Made by a program: the position numbers and the translations under genes
Notes under the pieces: generated by a model
Database searches by the model: none
Told to the model about the DNA's origin: nothing
What the model saw: only the letters and a program-made list of their open reading frames with translations
Part shown: positions 609-6,729 of the stretch, piece by piece
Numbering within the stretch: the stretch's first letter is position 1
How the letters are laid out: the number at the start of each line of letters is the position of its first letter
Source of the DNA: Acidobacteria bacterium RIFCSPLOWO2_12_FULL_68_19
Lineage (GTDB): Bacteria; Acidobacteriota; Vicinamibacteria; Vicinamibacterales; UBA2999
DNA: 64,000 nucleotides
NCBI GenBank assembly: GCA_001767525.1
Contig: MELF01000027.1
Location: 1-64,000 of the forward strand
Direction: 5' to 3'

Positions 609-2708
609 TCACGCCGCCGGCGCGGGCGCGCCGGGCGGCACGTCGTACACGTAGTCGTGCGCGTCGAGGGCCTTCCGCAGGCGCGCGCGCGCGGCCGGAT
701 CGGTGGCGCGGGCGAGCTTCATGACGACGTCCTGCCGGTCGCTCAGGATCGCGTCGAGAATCGCCTCGCGGTCGGCCTCCGGCTGCTCGACGATCGCCAG
801 CAGCACACGCGAACCGTACTTGATCCAGCGCGGCTGCGGCCGAAGCGTCCCATCGGGGCGCTTCTCGACGACCTGCCGCTGCAGCACCTGCAGCACGAGC
901 TCCGCGTGCGTCCGCTCGTAGACGATGTTCAGCGTCCGGAACAGCTCCTTGACCGTCTCGCGCCGGGCGTCGATCAGCGTGACGAAGAACTCCGGCGTCA
1001 CCCGGTCGCCCTTCTTCGACGACTCGCCGTCGGCGGTCAGCTCCACGCCGTGGTAGACGGTGAGGTACAGGAAGTGCCAGAAGATCTCGTACGTGGCGAG
1101 ATCGTTCATGAACCGCAGCCCGGTCTTCGGATCGTGGATGGCCGCGGCGTTGTTGCCCTGGAGCTGCTGGTACATGTACTCGGTGGCCATGTACATCGCG
1201 TAGCGCAGCCCGTCCTCCGTCGTCGGTCCCGCCGGGCGCGCGAGCAGGCGGTCGAGCGCCTCTGGGGCGAACAGCTTCTCCACCGTGAGATCGGCCGCGG
1301 TCAGCTCGAGCGGCTGGACCTTCCCCTTCTCGAGCAGGCCGAGCGCCTCGAGCCGGTCGCGCTCGTCCTGGGTCGCCTTGTCGACCACGCGCTGCAGGTC
1401 GGCCAGATCGGTGACGAGCGGCTCCTTGCCGGCGCCCACGTAGTCCTTCTGCACGGTGGCCACCCAGCTCTGGCGGTAGGTGTCGTACACCGTGCCGTCG
1501 ATCCGGAACAGCCCGGTGAGCCGTTCACGCAGCTTGTCGATCCAGATGTCGCGCAGCGCCTTGGCGTCGTGCTCGGGCGCCCGCGGGTTCTGCATCTGCG
1601 CCGCCATCCCCCCGATCGGCATGGCGCCGCACAGCGTGGCCAGGAGCGCGTTCCGCCTCGTGTAGTACGACATCGACGGCGCCGCCATCGTCACCGTGTG
1701 GGGATCGGGAATGACCATCGCCGGATCGTGGTGGAACATCTCCTCGCGGCTGTTGATGTAGTCCCAGCGCCCGACGTTGGGGCCGACCATGTTCTCCCGG
1801 AGCACCCACATGATCGCGTCCTGCTGCAGCACGAACTCGGCGCGCTCGTTGAGCAGCTTGACCTTGATCGTGCCGCGGGGGACGCCAATCGCCTCCTCCA
1901 GCCGCTTCAGGAGCCTGGCGACCAGCCTCGCTTCCTGCCACGTCTCGAGCTTCGGGATGTAGTAGTAGATGCCCGACCCGTTCTTCTTCTGCGCGTCGAA
2001 GTTGTGGACCGCGTGGATGACGAGCCCCGGGATGATCGCCGGCACCGGCTCGCCGTCGATTGTCATCTGCCGGCTGCGCAGGTGGATGCCGGCGACGCGG
2101 TGGAGGATCGTCGGCCACTGCTCCGGCGGCACCTCGATGCGATACGTCCGATTCTTCGTGGGATGGACGAACGGCTTCCCGTCCCACTTGTGCGCCAGGA
2201 TGTCCCGGAGGTTCACCCACGCCTGGTAGAGCTGATCCTTGTAGTCGCCGCCGGCGTCCTCCCAGTCCCACATCCACTGCGACGCGCCGCTGTTGAGCGC
2301 TCCCATCGCCATCCCCATGTCGATGGCGGGACCGGTGCCCTCGAGGCCGGGCCGCATCGTGTCGGCCGGTATCGGGACGAGCGCGCCCGTGCGCCACGCG
2401 TCGGCGGTCCGCCGCCCGTAGAAGCCGTCGAGCATCCCCTGCCGGATCCGGGCCACCGTCGTCTTGTTGCCGTCGGCGTCGCTCACCTCGCCCGAGGCCG
2501 GCAGGAATCCCCACCGGGCCGCGCCGCGCGCCACGCGCTCGAGGACGCCGTGGCGGTCGGCCAGCAGGCGCGGCAGCTCGGCGCTCACCGCAGCGGTCAT
2601 GTCGGCCATCAGATCTTCGACAACGACCGTGCGGCCGTTGACGGACCGGGGGCCGAAGAGGACGGCGTATTTCTCGCGAATATCGGGACGGATCTGCAGG
2701 GTTGGCAC
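609..2708 (-). CDS. aceB: Malate synthase (A-type-like, long form)
   Basis: This enzyme condenses glyoxylate with acetyl-CoA to malate in the glyoxylate bypass. Visible family blocks are WDWEDAGG followed by VNLRD, the LLNERAEF/GRWDYI block (malate synthase A has LIET/GRWDY), the MGGMAA-like GGMAAQMQNP block, and NDLATYEI, which aligns with the EDAATAEI segment holding the catalytic Asp. At about 699 aa it is longer than usual A-type enzymes (about 530-550), with extra sequence between the GGMAAQ block and the catalytic Asp. The GTG at 2708 has GGAGG six bases upstream; the frame stays open further up but the extra residues look non-coding and overlap the divergent promoter. No isocitrate lyase lies in the window. 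Confidence 0.85.
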   Translation of the reverse strand: MPTLQIRPDIREKYAVLFGPRSVNGRTVVVEDLMADMTAAVSAELPRLLADRHGVLERVARGAARWGFLPASGEVSDADGNKTTVARIRQGMLDGFYGRRTADAWRTGALVPIPADTMRPGLEGTGPAIDMGMAMGALNSGASQWMWDWEDAGGDYKDQLYQAWVNLRDILAHKWDGKPFVHPTKNRTYRIEVPPEQWPTILHRVAGIHLRSRQMTIDGEPVPAIIPGLVIHAVHNFDAQKKNGSGIYYYIPKLETWQEARLVARLLKRLEEAIGVPRGTIKVKLLNERAEFVLQQDAIMWVLRENMVGPNVGRWDYINSREEMFHHDPAMVIPDPHTVTMAAPSMSYYTRRNALLATLCGAMPIGGMAAQMQNPRAPEHDAKALRDIWIDKLRERLTGLFRIDGTVYDTYRQSWVATVQKDYVGAGKEPLVTDLADLQRVVDKATQDERDRLEALGLLEKGKVQPLELTAADLTVEKLFAPEALDRLLARPAGPTTEDGLRYAMYMATEYMYQQLQGNNAAAIHDPKTGLRFMNDLATYEIFWHFLYLTVYHGVELTADGESSKKGDRVTPEFFVTLIDARRETVKELFRTLNIVYERTHAELVLQVLQRQVVEKRPDGTLRPQPRWIKYGSRVLLAIVEQPEADREAILDAILSDRQDVVMKLARATDPAARARLRKALDAHDYVYDVPPGAPAPAA

Positions 2709-2744
2709 CAGGAGCCTCCAGGAAAGATCGGAAAAGGGGGTTCT

Positions 2745-2794: not shown

Positions 2795-2824
2795 TTCGCA
2801 ACGTGTTCAAAAGCGTTGTAGAAT
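2795..2824 (+). promoter_or_regulatory. Putative promoter of the sulfate leader
   Basis: TTCGCA (2795-2800) and TAGAAT (2819-2824) are separated by 18 bases. This would start a transcript near 2831, running through the structured leader into the TauE-CysD gene. It is divergent from the malate synthase promoter. Judged by eye. Confidence 0.35.
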
Positions 2825-2830
2825 CCCTCG

Positions 2831-3000
2831 TATCGTGTTGTTCCACATCGGCCGGATCTGCGTCTGTTGTTGTCGGGGGACCATCCCGGTCTCGACGCGA
2901 TCCGTCTGGCTGTCAGGGTAGGCCGTTCCACACCACCCACCAACGACAACACAGCAGAACTGGAAAGCCCGGGACCCCTCGTCCCGGGCTTTCGTGTTTT
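2831..3000 (+). ncRNA. Candidate structured leader (attenuator) or small RNA upstream of the sulfate operon
   Basis: About 170 nt without a convincing reading frame. The segment 2864-2875 pairs with 2944-2954 (eight perfect pairs TGTTGTCG/CGACAACA, a bulge, then CTG/CAG), enclosing a G/C-rich internal region. The element ends in a perfect 13-bp hairpin followed by GTGTTTT. TCCCGG at 2884-2889 could pair with the 5' arm of that hairpin (CCGGGA, 2969-2974) as a weak anti-terminator. I could not match it to SAM-I, SAM-II, SAH, T-box, 6S or SRP consensus elements. It could be a cis leader for the downstream operon or an independent sRNA. Confidence 0.4.
2963..3000 (+). terminator. Rho-independent terminator hairpin 18 nt before the TauE-CysD start
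   Basis: Thirteen-base perfect arms (2963-2975 and 2981-2993, GAAAGCCCGGGAC and its complement) with a CCCTC loop, followed by GTGTTTT. It lies between the leader and the start codon at 3019, where a terminator makes sense only as attenuation or as the end of a small RNA. Confidence 0.8.
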
Positions 3001-3018
3001 CAGGAGCTCTTTCGTCGA

Positions 3019-4620
3019 ATGCTGGACCTGACGCTTCCACTCGCCGGCTTTGGGGTCGGCGTGCTGATCGGCCTGACGGGGATGGGCGGCGGCGCCCTGA
3101 TGACGCCGTTCCTCATCCTGATTCTCGGCACCCGTCCGGTGATCGCGGTCGGCACCGATCTGGTCTACGGCGCCGTCACCAAACTCGTCGGCGCGTACCT
3201 GCACTGGCGGCAGGGAACGGTCGACCTCCGCCTGGCGCTACGGCTCGCGGCGGCAAGCGTCCCGTCGGGGCTCGCGGCGGTCGTGGCGCTGCGCCTGCTT
3301 CCCGACGCCGGAGCCGCGGACCACGCCGTCCGGCAGGCGCTCGGCGTCGCGTTGGTGGCAGTCGCGCTGCTGCTGATGGCGCGCCTCGTGGGCGCCTCGC
3401 CGCTGCCGCTCCCCGCGCGCTGGCGCCACGCGTGCCGCGGCGGCGGCACCTATGCCGCCGGGGCGCTCGTGGGCGCGCTCGTCGGGTTCACCTCCGTCGG
3501 CAGCGGATCGCTGCTCGTCCCGTTCCTCCTGGGCGTGCTCCCGCTCGCCGCGGCGCAGGTGGTCGGCACCGACGTCTTTCATGCCGCCATCCTGGTGAGC
3601 GTGACCGCGGTCGCGCATGCGCAGGCGGGCACCGTCGACTGGCCGCTGGCGGCGGCGCTCCTGACCGGCTCGCTGCCGGGCGTGGCGGTGGGCAGTTGGA
3701 TGACGACTCGGCTGCCGGCGCTGCAGCTCGACCACCTGCGGACGCTCGAAGCCGAAGCCGTCCACGTCCTGCGCGAAGTGGCGGCGGAATTCGCGCGTCC
3801 GGTCGTGCTCTACTCGATCGGCAAGGACTCCTCCGTGATGCTGCGGCTCGCGCAGAAGGCCTTCCATCCGGCGCCGATCCCGTTCCCGCTGCTGCACGTC
3901 GACACCACGTACAAGTTCGGCGAGATGATCCGCTTTCGCGACGAGGCGGCCAGGACGATCGGTGCAACGCTCGTCGTCCACGCCAACCAGGAGGCGATTG
4001 GCGAGGGCACTCAACCCCTCGCGGTCGGCACCGAGCGCTGCTGCGCGCTGCTGAAGACGCGGGCGCTGCTCGACGCGCTGGAGGCGGGCGGCTTCGATGC
4101 GGCGATTGGCGGCGCGCGTCGAGACGAGGAACGGTCGCGCGCCAAGGAGCGCGTCTTCTCCGTGCGGGACGCGCGCGGCCAATGGGATCCGAAGCGCCAG
4201 CGGCCCGAGCTGTGGCGCCTGCTGAACGCGCGGTTGCGACCGGGCGAGACCATCCGCGTCTTCCCGCTCTCCAACTGGACCGAGATCGACGTCTGGCAGT
4301 ACATCCACGTCGAGCGCATTCCCATCGTCCCGCTCTACTTCGCCCGGGAGCGCGAGGTCATCGTCCGCGGCGGCTCGCTGCTGCTGCCGGAGCAGCCGTT
4401 CGTCGTGCCGATGCCGGGCGAACGGCCGCAGGTCGTCCGCTGCCGAATGCGCTCGCTCGGCTGCTCGCCGTGCACCGGCGCCATCCGCTCCGACGCGGAC
4501 ACCGTGCCGGCAATCATCGAGGAGCTCGTCGCCACGCGCCACTCCGAGCGGCAGCTCCGTGTCATCGACCACGATCAGGACGGGTCCATGGAAATGAAGA
4601 AGCGCGAGGGGTACTTCTAG
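3019..4620 (+). CDS. cysD: TauE/SafE (TSUP) permease fused to CysD sulfate adenylyltransferase subunit 2
   Basis: Residues 1 to about 228 are a TSUP-family membrane permease: the N-terminal GLTGMGGGALMTP motif, its repeat GFTSVGSGSLLVP, and about seven hydrophobic segments. Without a stop the frame runs straight into a complete CysD from about residue 234 (LDHLRTLEAEA), with the ATP-pyrophosphatase loop SIGKDSS near 266-272, LLHVDTTYKF, and the usual CysD C-terminus. CysD with CysN makes adenylyl sulfate from sulfate and ATP. The TSUP part ends about one membrane helix short of the normal family. An ATG at 3700 sits almost exactly at the CysD start, so a separate CysD could also be made by internal initiation. 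Start 3019 follows AGGAG at 3002-3006. Confidence 0.85.
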   Translation: MLDLTLPLAGFGVGVLIGLTGMGGGALMTPFLILILGTRPVIAVGTDLVYGAVTKLVGAYLHWRQGTVDLRLALRLAAASVPSGLAAVVALRLLPDAGAADHAVRQALGVALVAVALLLMARLVGASPLPLPARWRHACRGGGTYAAGALVGALVGFTSVGSGSLLVPFLLGVLPLAAAQVVGTDVFHAAILVSVTAVAHAQAGTVDWPLAAALLTGSLPGVAVGSWMTTRLPALQLDHLRTLEAEAVHVLREVAAEFARPVVLYSIGKDSSVMLRLAQKAFHPAPIPFPLLHVDTTYKFGEMIRFRDEAARTIGATLVVHANQEAIGEGTQPLAVGTERCCALLKTRALLDALEAGGFDAAIGGARRDEERSRAKERVFSVRDARGQWDPKRQRPELWRLLNARLRPGETIRVFPLSNWTEIDVWQYIHVERIPIVPLYFAREREVIVRGGSLLLPEQPFVVPMPGERPQVVRCRMRSLGCSPCTGAIRSDADTVPAIIEELVATRHSERQLRVIDHDQDGSMEMKKREGYF

Positions 4621-4700: not shown

Positions 4701-6008
4701 ATGTCCGGGCTGCTGCGGATCTGCACGGCCGGGAGCGTGGACGACGGGAAGAGCACGCTCATCGGGCGGATGCTGCACGACGCCCGGGCGGTGTACGAGG
4801 ACCAGGTGCATGCGGTCCGCGCGGCGTCCGCCAATCGCGGTGCCGGTCCCATCGACTTCTCGCTGTTCACCGACGGGCTGAGAGCCGAGCGCGAGCAGGG
4901 CATCACGATCGACGTGGCGTATCGCTATTTCGCCACGGCGCGGCGGACATTCATCCTCGCCGACACGCCGGGCCACGAGCAGTACACGCGCAACATGGCA
5001 ACGGGCGCGTCGACCTCCGACGTGGCCATTCTGCTCGTGGACGCCCGGCACGGCCTGCGGGCGCAGTCCCGTCGCCACGCCCGGATCGCGCGCCTGCTCG
5101 GCATCTCCGACTTCGTCGTGGCGGTCAACAAGATGGATCTGGTCGACTTCAGCCGCGACGTTTTCGATCGGATTCGCGGCGACTTCGAGGCGCTGCTCGA
5201 GGGCGCACGGTGCCATACGGTCCCGCTCAGCGCGCTGCATGGCGACAACGTGACCGCGCCGAGCGCGAGAATGCCGTGGTGGGCCGGCCTGCCGCTGCTC
5301 GAGTACCTGGAAACGGTCGAGGTCAGGCGCGACCTGACCGCGCAGCCGTTTCGCTTTCCCGTGCAGCTGGTGCTCCGGCCGAGCGACACGTTCCGCGGCT
5401 ATGCGGGACAAATCGCCTCCGGGGTCGTGCGCGTCGGCGACCGCCTTGGCGTGTGGCCGTCGGGCCGGTCGGCGCGGGTCGCCCGGATCGTGACCTTCGA
5501 CGGCGACCGCCAGACGGCGTTCGCGCCGATGTCGGTCACGCTGACGCTCGACGACGAGGTCGATGTCAGCCGCGGCGATCTGCTCGCACACGAGCCCCCG
5601 CACGTCGGCTCCCGCTTCGAAGCGGACGTGGTGTGGATGGACGAGCGGCCGCTCGACCCCAATCGTCTCTACCTGCTGAAGCACACCACGCGCACGGTCA
5701 CCGCCGAGGTGAGCCATCGGCTCGGGCTGAACCAGATGGGCACGCTGACCGTGTCGACGGCGCGTCCGCTCGTCTTCGACGCCTACGGGAACAACCGCAC
5801 GACAGGCAGCTTCGTCCTGATCGACCCCGCCACATGCTTCACCGCCGGCGCGGGCATGATGACCGCCGCGGTCGCCGAGCGCGCCGCGTGGGCGCGGGAG
5901 GCGCGGGCGGGCGCCGCCGAACGGCTGGCGCGGCTGGCGCGGCGTGCCGGATCCGACGAGGAGGCGGCCAGGACCGTAGCGCAGGCCCTCGAGGAGATGC
6001 TGACATGA
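4701..6008 (+). CDS. cysN: Sulfate adenylyltransferase subunit 1 (GTPase CysN)
   Basis: This is the GTPase partner of CysD; GTP hydrolysis drives formation of adenylyl sulfate in the cytoplasm. G1 is GSVDDGKST at residues 11-19, G3 is DTPGHEQ from 88, G4 is NKMD at 143-146, followed by elongation-factor-like beta-barrel domains. At 435 aa it is a stand-alone CysN without the C-terminal CysC kinase seen in CysNC fusions. No CysC is encoded nearby, which fits a direct APS-reducing route. The ATG at 4701 has GGAGG at 4687-4691. It is the second gene of the sulfate operon. Confidence 0.95.
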   Translation: MSGLLRICTAGSVDDGKSTLIGRMLHDARAVYEDQVHAVRAASANRGAGPIDFSLFTDGLRAEREQGITIDVAYRYFATARRTFILADTPGHEQYTRNMATGASTSDVAILLVDARHGLRAQSRRHARIARLLGISDFVVAVNKMDLVDFSRDVFDRIRGDFEALLEGARCHTVPLSALHGDNVTAPSARMPWWAGLPLLEYLETVEVRRDLTAQPFRFPVQLVLRPSDTFRGYAGQIASGVVRVGDRLGVWPSGRSARVARIVTFDGDRQTAFAPMSVTLTLDDEVDVSRGDLLAHEPPHVGSRFEADVVWMDERPLDPNRLYLLKHTTRTVTAEVSHRLGLNQMGTLTVSTARPLVFDAYGNNRTTGSFVLIDPATCFTAGAGMMTAAVAERAAWAREARAGAAERLARLARRAGSDEEAARTVAQALEEMLT

Positions 6009-6012
6009 GACG

Positions 6013-6078
6013 GGCCACAGAGTCACAGAGACACAGAGTCCAAGAAGCTCCCTCTGCGCCTCCGTGTCTGCTGTGGCC
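6013..6078. repeat. CACAGAG-type imperfect inverted repeat between cysN and cysH
   Basis: The left arm (6013-6038) has period-like GGCCACAGAG.CACAGAGACACAGAG sequence. The right arm (6052-6078) is its approximate complement, ending CTGTGGCC. The ends pair perfectly (GGCCACAG/CTGTGGCC), making a long imperfect hairpin inside the operon between two coding regions. Confidence 0.7.
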
Positions 6079-6096
6079 TGTGGAGGTGAACCTGGT

Positions 6097-6729
6097 GTGA
6101 ATAACACGCGGGAAATCATCTGCACGGCGCTGGCGCGGGCGCAGGCGCCGTGCGCCACGTCGAGCTTTCAGGCCGAGTGCGTGGTGCTGATGCACCTGCT
6201 GCGGGCGGAACGGGGGGACCTGCCGGTGTTGTTCCTCGACACCTGCCATCACTTTGCCGAGACGCTGAGGTACCGCGAGGAGATTGTCCGGGCGTGGCAG
6301 ACCAACCTCGTCGTCCTGCGGGCCGCCGAACCGCGCGTCGGGCTGTGGCAGGCCGAGAGCGCCGACGCGTGCTGCCGGCGGCACAAGGTGGAGCCGCTCT
6401 TCACGGCGCTCGAGCAGTACGACCTCTGGTTCACAGCGCTGCGGCGCGACCAGTCGCCCTCGCGCGCGCACCTGCGGGAAGTGGAGTCGTTCCGGCTCCC
6501 GAGCGGCAGAACGATCCAGCGAATCAGCCCGCTGGCGGCGTGGACGACGGGGGATGTCTGGGCGTACGCGCAGCGGCACGCCGTGCCGCTGCTGCCGCTC
6601 TACGAGCGCGGCTACACGAGCATCGGCTGCGAGCCGTGCACCTCGCTGCCGCTCGACCCGGCGAACCCGCGCTCCGGCCGCTGGGGCGGACAGAAGCTGG
6701 AGTGCGGGATTCACATCGAGGCGACATAG
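6097..6729 (+). CDS. cysH: Adenylylsulfate (APS) reductase, 4Fe-4S type
   Basis: It reduces activated sulfate to sulfite in assimilatory sulfur metabolism. Two cysteines at residues 92-93 with the following RRHKVEPL segment, CEPC at 178-181, and the catalytic ECGIH at 202-206 are the signature of iron-sulfur APS reductases rather than the cluster-free PAPS reductases. This agrees with the missing cysC kinase. The protein is about 210 aa. I chose GTG 6097 because GGAGG lies ten bases upstream; a longer frame from 6064 is open but begins inside the repeat spacer. It is the last gene of the sulfate operon. Confidence 0.92.
   Translation: MNNTREIICTALARAQAPCATSSFQAECVVLMHLLRAERGDLPVLFLDTCHHFAETLRYREEIVRAWQTNLVVLRAAEPRVGLWQAESADACCRRHKVEPLFTALEQYDLWFTALRRDQSPSRAHLREVESFRLPSGRTIQRISPLAAWTTGDVWAYAQRHAVPLLPLYERGYTSIGCEPCTSLPLDPANPRSGRWGGQKLECGIHIEAT

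Follow-up and report, generated by a model that had tools for sequence, protein, structure and literature searches.

The leader that precedes the sulfate-assimilation operon in the window (the whole 64,000-nucleotide stretch of acidobacterial DNA which was analysed) is very probably, at roughly nine chances in ten, a ribosome-mediated transcription attenuator which senses charged Cys-tRNA. Its features are as follows.

2795-2800, + strand: -35-like hexamer TTCGCA, from a consensus scan; homologues mostly have a TTGAC-like sequence here
2819-2824, + strand: -10 hexamer TAGAAT, from a consensus scan; a TANNNT-like box lies equally far from the leader start in most homologues
2835-2921, + strand: leader open reading frame with GTG start, 28 aa and TAG stop at 2919-2921, from the sequence and the layout kept in homologues
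2859-2873, + strand: regulatory codons TGC GTC TGT TGT TGT (Cys-Val-Cys-Cys-Cys), from homologue comparison and rare-codon bias
2865-2873, + strand: 5' strand of P0, the three TGT codons, pairing with 2943-2951 in ribosome-free RNA in the MFE fold
2877-2893, + strand: hairpin P1, GGGACC (2877-2882), loop ATCCC and GGTCTC (2888-2893), with both-sided changes at 6 of 6 pairs
2888-2898, + strand: antiterminator 5' strand, the P1 3' arm plus GACGC, which pairs with the terminator 5' arm, from the swap test and ribosome-masked folding
2943-2951, + strand: 3' strand of P0, ACGACAACA, from the MFE fold and the 66-copy alignment
2963-2993, + strand: intrinsic terminator of 13 perfect pairs with loop CCCTC and both-sided changes at 9 of 11 modelled pairs
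2967-2976, + strand: antiterminator 3' strand, inside the terminator 5' arm and loop, from the swap test and ribosome-masked folding
2994-3000, + strand: T-rich tail of the terminator, GTGTTTT, from the sequence

The predicted leader peptide and its homologues

The promoter-like pair claimed in the original prediction was found; TTCGCA, a poor -35 match, is separated from TAGAAT by an 18-nt spacer, and the consensus scan of 12 kb yielded three promoter-like pairs where 0.6 would be expected. Since the GTG at 2835 lies only 10 nt past the -10 box, the window transcript is probably leaderless or nearly so, with a few 5' bases at most. In three Acidobacteria genomes, about 13% of genes on average have been predicted to be leaderless (PMC3160421), and the leaderless leader ORF of Sinorhizobium meliloti trpL begins at the 5' end of its transcript (PMC7298713), as predicted for the window leader. 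Read from GTG 2835, the predicted leader peptide has 28 residues, MLFHIGRICVCCCRGTIPVSTRSVWLSG, and the upstream leader reads as coding for a poly-Cys peptide over about half its length, not as non-coding. Of the approximately 170 nt of foldable non-coding RNA proposed at first, the folding therefore stood, the 192-nt leader stretch being more stable than its dinucleotide shuffles (z -2.42, with 3 of 200 shuffles folding as well), while the absence of coding did not, given the ORF at 2835-2921. A malate synthase gene (609-2714, minus strand) is oriented divergently to the attenuator. The longest ORF for this gene could begin at 2846 and would then overlap the leader, but the likely start is near 2714.

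A BLAST search with the leader recovered copies of it from relatives, some full-length and others partial, which precede cysD, tauE-cysD and siroheme-synthase genes. The covariance model R1, built from eight copies, matched in 63 out of 193 same-class genomes (E up to 1e-3), and 69 matches were examined, a few of the weakest of those listed being left out. Most homologues have a -10 box with a TTGAC-like -35 and, in resolved cases, a GTG or ATG 7-10 nt after the -10; their peptides have about 20-37 residues, typically with 3-6 contiguous Cys codons. Our script resolved no start or promoter in some of the leaders, and in a few weak matches the Cys runs were short or not consecutive. The leader runs contain 172 TGT and 50 TGC codons, as against 39 TGT and 201 TGC in the first downstream genes, and the leader thus favours the rare Cys codon, either for sensitivity or because a third-position U suits P0. 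Some candidates were rejected: BLAST matches to window positions 2944-2971 in many relatives were dropped because they fell in a conserved protein-coding gene that shares CAGAACTGGAAAGGCC, a model match at G000:C48:2679 (E about 1e-3) had no Cys leader and was considered a false positive, and several phylum-wide matches of a broader model, R2, were bare terminators and were left out of the counts.

These homologues bear on whether the leader could be a metabolite riboswitch for a sulfur compound, in which P1 would be part of the aptamer and the ORF would be incidental. A folded leader, a covarying hairpin, an antiterminator-like alternative pairing and a sulfur regulon would all be expected of such an element, and sulfur riboswitches and others in Rfam 15 are, like the window leader, cis-regulatory gene leaders with a terminator as expression platform. 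However, a Cys-codon ORF stands at a constant promoter-to-start distance in nearly all homologues, its Cys codons interchange between TGT and TGC, and P1 is just a simple hairpin, whose loops vary and which conserves no pocket apart from what antiterminator pairing requires. Moreover, in keeping with the original observation that it matches no known sulfur riboswitch consensus, no Rfam 15 family, sulfur riboswitches included, matched at its gathering score, and the best sub-threshold matches mainly fitted the terminator. Because the element encodes a poly-Cys leader peptide, its sensor is most likely the translating ribosome, and the metabolite riboswitch implied in the original prediction is highly improbable.

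Terminator, antiterminator and ribosome position

The predicted terminator, a perfect 13-bp stem ending 18 bases before the start codon, is present at 2963-2993, with a T run that ends at 3000, 18 bases ahead of the ATG at 3019. Terminator-like sites as a class were not enriched in 12 kb (2 against 4.2 expected); the one at 2963-2993 stands out through its perfect 13-bp stem and through being kept in relatives. In the covariance alignment of 66 copies, which was made to the covariance model and so leans towards its structure, 93% of cells were paired and none of 500 shuffles matched any measure, while slid versions of the alignment dropped to 34-62% paired. Both-sided changes occurred at all six pairs of P1, at 9 of 11 in the terminator and at two of six in P0, the cells of which were 90.6% paired.

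P1 starts 3 nt past the Cys run, and across homologues the terminator 5' arm and loop resemble the P1 5' arm. This mimicry is seen with different letters, as one group has GGGACC in P1 and terminator alike and another carries GGGCUC in its P1 and GGCUC in its terminator. In a swap test the P1 3' arm paired more strongly with the terminator arm of its own leader than with those of other leaders (-18.92 vs -15.93 kcal/mol; 0 of 2000 permutations), a test of a type which shared ancestry inflates, although ancestry alone would not favour complementarity; a control segment gave no own-versus-cross effect. The TCCCGG at 2884-2889, which had been proposed to compete for the terminator arm, is present and overlaps the antiterminator strand.

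Computed folding, with the ribosome footprint approximated by masking, points to a switch which depends on ribosome position. When window RNA ending before the terminator 3' arm was folded with no ribosome, P1 formed and there were no antiterminator pairs, whereas masking a ribosome whose A site occupied the first two Cys codons in the run produced 11 antiterminator pairs and abolished P1; once the ribosome was placed further 3' or at the stop codon, antiterminator pairs went back to about 0. The family means were about 8-10 antiterminator pairs with the ribosome on the Cys run or 5' of it and zero just past it, and the count climbed again near the stop codon in some members. At equilibrium, pre-terminator transcripts from roughly half the members favour antiterminator pairing even when no ribosome is present, and in full-length transcripts the terminator is favoured in nearly all members, with or without a stalled ribosome, so that the decision must fall during transcription, which is when classical attenuators choose between termination and read-through.

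We therefore propose the following mechanism for the attenuator. Transcription would begin just ahead of or at GTG 2835, and a ribosome would load onto this almost leaderless RNA. During a shortage of Cys-tRNA the ribosome would stall on the Cys codons at 2859-2873, its footprint hiding the P1 5' arm, and the P1 3' arm (2888-2898) would be freed to capture the terminator 5' arm (2967-2976); with this antiterminator pairing no terminator would form, and tauE-cysD, cysN and cysH would be transcribed. When cysteine is plentiful the ribosome would run through, P1 would reform and the terminator at 2963-2993 would form, stopping transcription before 3019. In RNA with no ribosome, P0 and P1 would likewise favour termination.

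The leader peptide could alternatively govern access to the downstream ribosome binding site, and not termination, by translation attenuation or uORF coupling, as proposed for leaderless poly-Cys ORFs before cys genes in mycobacteria (PMC9031893, PMC13236596). We regard this as very unlikely, given the perfect intrinsic terminator with a T tail between ORF and gene, both in the window and in the aligned copies, and given that the partner of the P1 3' arm is the terminator 5' arm and not a Shine-Dalgarno sequence. Transcription attenuation, in contrast, agrees with a stretch of codons specifying the pathway's end product (CVCCC in the window, with cysteine/sulfate genes downstream), with an intrinsic terminator between leader ORF and first gene and, as computed in the swap test and by masked folding, with an exclusive antiterminator that depends on where the ribosome stands.

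Downstream genes and regulon

The leader is followed in the window by these features.

3002-3006, + strand: AGGAG, ahead of the ATG at 3019
3019-4620, + strand: first regulated gene, TauE/SafE fused in frame to a CysD-like protein, 533 aa (Pfam PF01925, PF01507)
4701-6008, + strand: CysN-like GTPase, sulfate adenylyltransferase large subunit, adjoining CysD (Pfam GTP_EFTU)
6064-6729, + strand: CysH-like PAPS/APS reductase (Pfam PF01507)

Sulfur-assimilation genes lie 3' of 68 of the 69 examined matches, an association scored with seeds drawn from the same set and thus not independent; in the 69th, the contig stops after 18 residues resembling the start of a uroporphyrinogen methyltransferase. 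The first gene after the attenuator encodes CysD (24 cases), siroheme synthase (21), TauE (8) or a DUF2061 protein followed by CysH (8), and more rarely uroporphyrinogen methyltransferase (2), CysH (2), a CysK-like protein (2) or a PF03601 transporter (1). Pfam bore out representative downstream genes (PF01507, PF01925, PF13241, PF00590, PF09834 and PF03601). The homologues and the gene association thus uphold the original prediction of a cis-regulatory leader whose attenuator-like terminator stands ahead of a sulfate-assimilation operon, for which a covariance search had been suggested: the pairings are kept, and none of the 69 examined matches sits before an unrelated gene.

The window's genome contains three copies, before tauE-cysD, before a siroheme-synthase gene (a second strong copy, G000:C2:44328-44458) and before a PF03601-like gene (a third, weaker copy, G000:C6:37435-37570, where PF03601 was assigned by Pfam on a homologous gene, in L110, and not on the third-copy gene itself). 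The attenuator most likely controls the tauE-cysD/cysN/cysH operon of the window, together with no fewer than two further sulfur loci elsewhere in this genome.

TauE and CysD share one 533-aa frame at 3019-4620 and are separate genes in a genome of the same genus (L032); the fused TauE domain is without its end (Pfam positions 3-220 of 237), and the fusion may be either real or an assembly artefact. In eight loci (L080, L085, L087, L102-L105 and L117) a small DUF2061 membrane protein is encoded between the attenuator and cysH, a position which suggests that it may have a role in sulfur metabolism.

The fixed genomic setting also bears on the suggestion that the element is a free small RNA, one that would act in trans and have a promoter and terminator of its own. 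Promoter and terminator are indeed present, and the trpL attenuator RNA and leader peptide of S. meliloti do act in trans (PMC7298713). Nevertheless, a free small RNA would leave unexplained the constant position and orientation before sulfur genes, and the antiterminator complementarity also argues against it, making this reading extremely improbable. A trans-acting role could coexist with attenuation as an extra function, and termination may release a free small RNA as a by-product.

Known attenuators and other poly-cysteine leaders

The window family resembles the trp, his and leu attenuators in having a leader peptide enriched in the amino acid that is sensed, an antiterminator and a terminator that exclude each other, and a biosynthetic operon downstream. 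Unlike them, it would sense cysteine and not Trp, His or Leu, it would control sulfate assimilation, siroheme synthesis and transporters, and it has its own conserved sequence and P0/P1 layout. In mycobacteria, poly-Cys ORFs before cys operons were predicted with no conserved terminator hairpins (Seliverstov et al. 2005, PMC1262725), and the polycysteine ORFs of Canestrari et al. (2020) are leaderless and act on translation, as cited in PMC9031893 and PMC13236596. From what these citing papers describe, the mycobacterial ORFs are leaderless, as the window's is predicted to be or nearly so, and like it have contiguous Cys codons before cys operons, but act on translation without a conserved terminator, whereas the window family has a terminator and a covarying antiterminator; on this comparison of descriptions the sensing principle is alike, and membership was rejected because of the strong, conserved intrinsic terminator found here.

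The uORFC-8-2 motif, which precedes cysS in Rhodobacterales, is a Cys-uORF attenuator with a terminator, and its read-through has been proposed to depend on stalling (PMC8632094). It shares with the window family tandem Cys codons in a uORF, a stem holding them and then an intrinsic terminator. As described, however, its tandem Cys codons number two, most often at positions 14-15, and it occurs only before cysS, whereas the window family typically has 3-6 contiguous Cys codons, is predicted to be leaderless or nearly so and has a sulfate-assimilation regulon; membership also failed by position, as the downstream genes here are those of sulfate assimilation and not cysS. The principle of a leader-peptide attenuator is ordinary, and the family with a poly-Cys leader before sulfate-assimilation genes is new; no description of it was found in Rfam or in searchable papers, much subscription literature lying outside that search.

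A wider survey of public genomes used a pattern of a promoter and five Cys codons, and many of the matches listed are there by chance; its reversed-pattern control, YGTYGTYGTYGT, was poor in that it also fits TGT repeats (13 genomes vs 21), and we claim no enrichment. Among the matches listed, four Acidobacteriaceae loci (L219, L224, L226 and L250) have a poly-Cys ORF directly before a 1-Cys-type peroxiredoxin gene, with a terminator-like hairpin after the ORF in three of them. Also among the matches listed are poly-Cys ORFs before PALP-family, cysteine-synthase-like genes in Chloroflexi (L204, L212, L221, L268) and before hexapeptide-transferase, serine-acetyltransferase-like genes in Firmicutes (L228, L234), which start 21-32 nt after the -10 box and so are not leaderless, and poly-Cys leaders that precede sulfite/nitrite reductases, from a bacteroidete and from an anaerolinean. 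The phylum search also gave a poly-Cys leader before a CysH-like gene at one locus (L149) from outside the class to which the window belongs.

A second Cys-rich leader family was seen at L311-L321 (for example around 1557 in L311 and around 1520 in L319) and, upstream on the opposite strand, at L033 and L039. Its peptides have a Cys run and end in CRCACIGPTT(V/M)(R/G), and its RNA has a conserved CGCTGCGCGTGTATCGGGCCGACGA and a downstream TCGATCGGCC-like complement. It precedes TauE-like genes and other proteins, some resembling TonB-dependent receptors; no obvious terminator was seen at its loci, and no member of it was found in the genome that contains the window. It is possible, although we consider it doubtful, that Cys-tRNA attenuation is the general sulfur regulator of the lineage, acting on several operons per genome through at least two unrelated poly-Cys architectures (the terminator type and the CRCACIGPTT type), with the rare UGU as a sensitised sensor.

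The window family would combine a nearly leaderless start and classical attenuation in one device, and in related genomes its covariance model flags sulfur-assimilation operons as well as small ORFs that annotation has missed. Because the survey suggests, among the matches listed, that several further phyla have poly-Cys leaders ahead of cysteine and sulfur genes, attenuation of this kind is probably more widespread than annotated.
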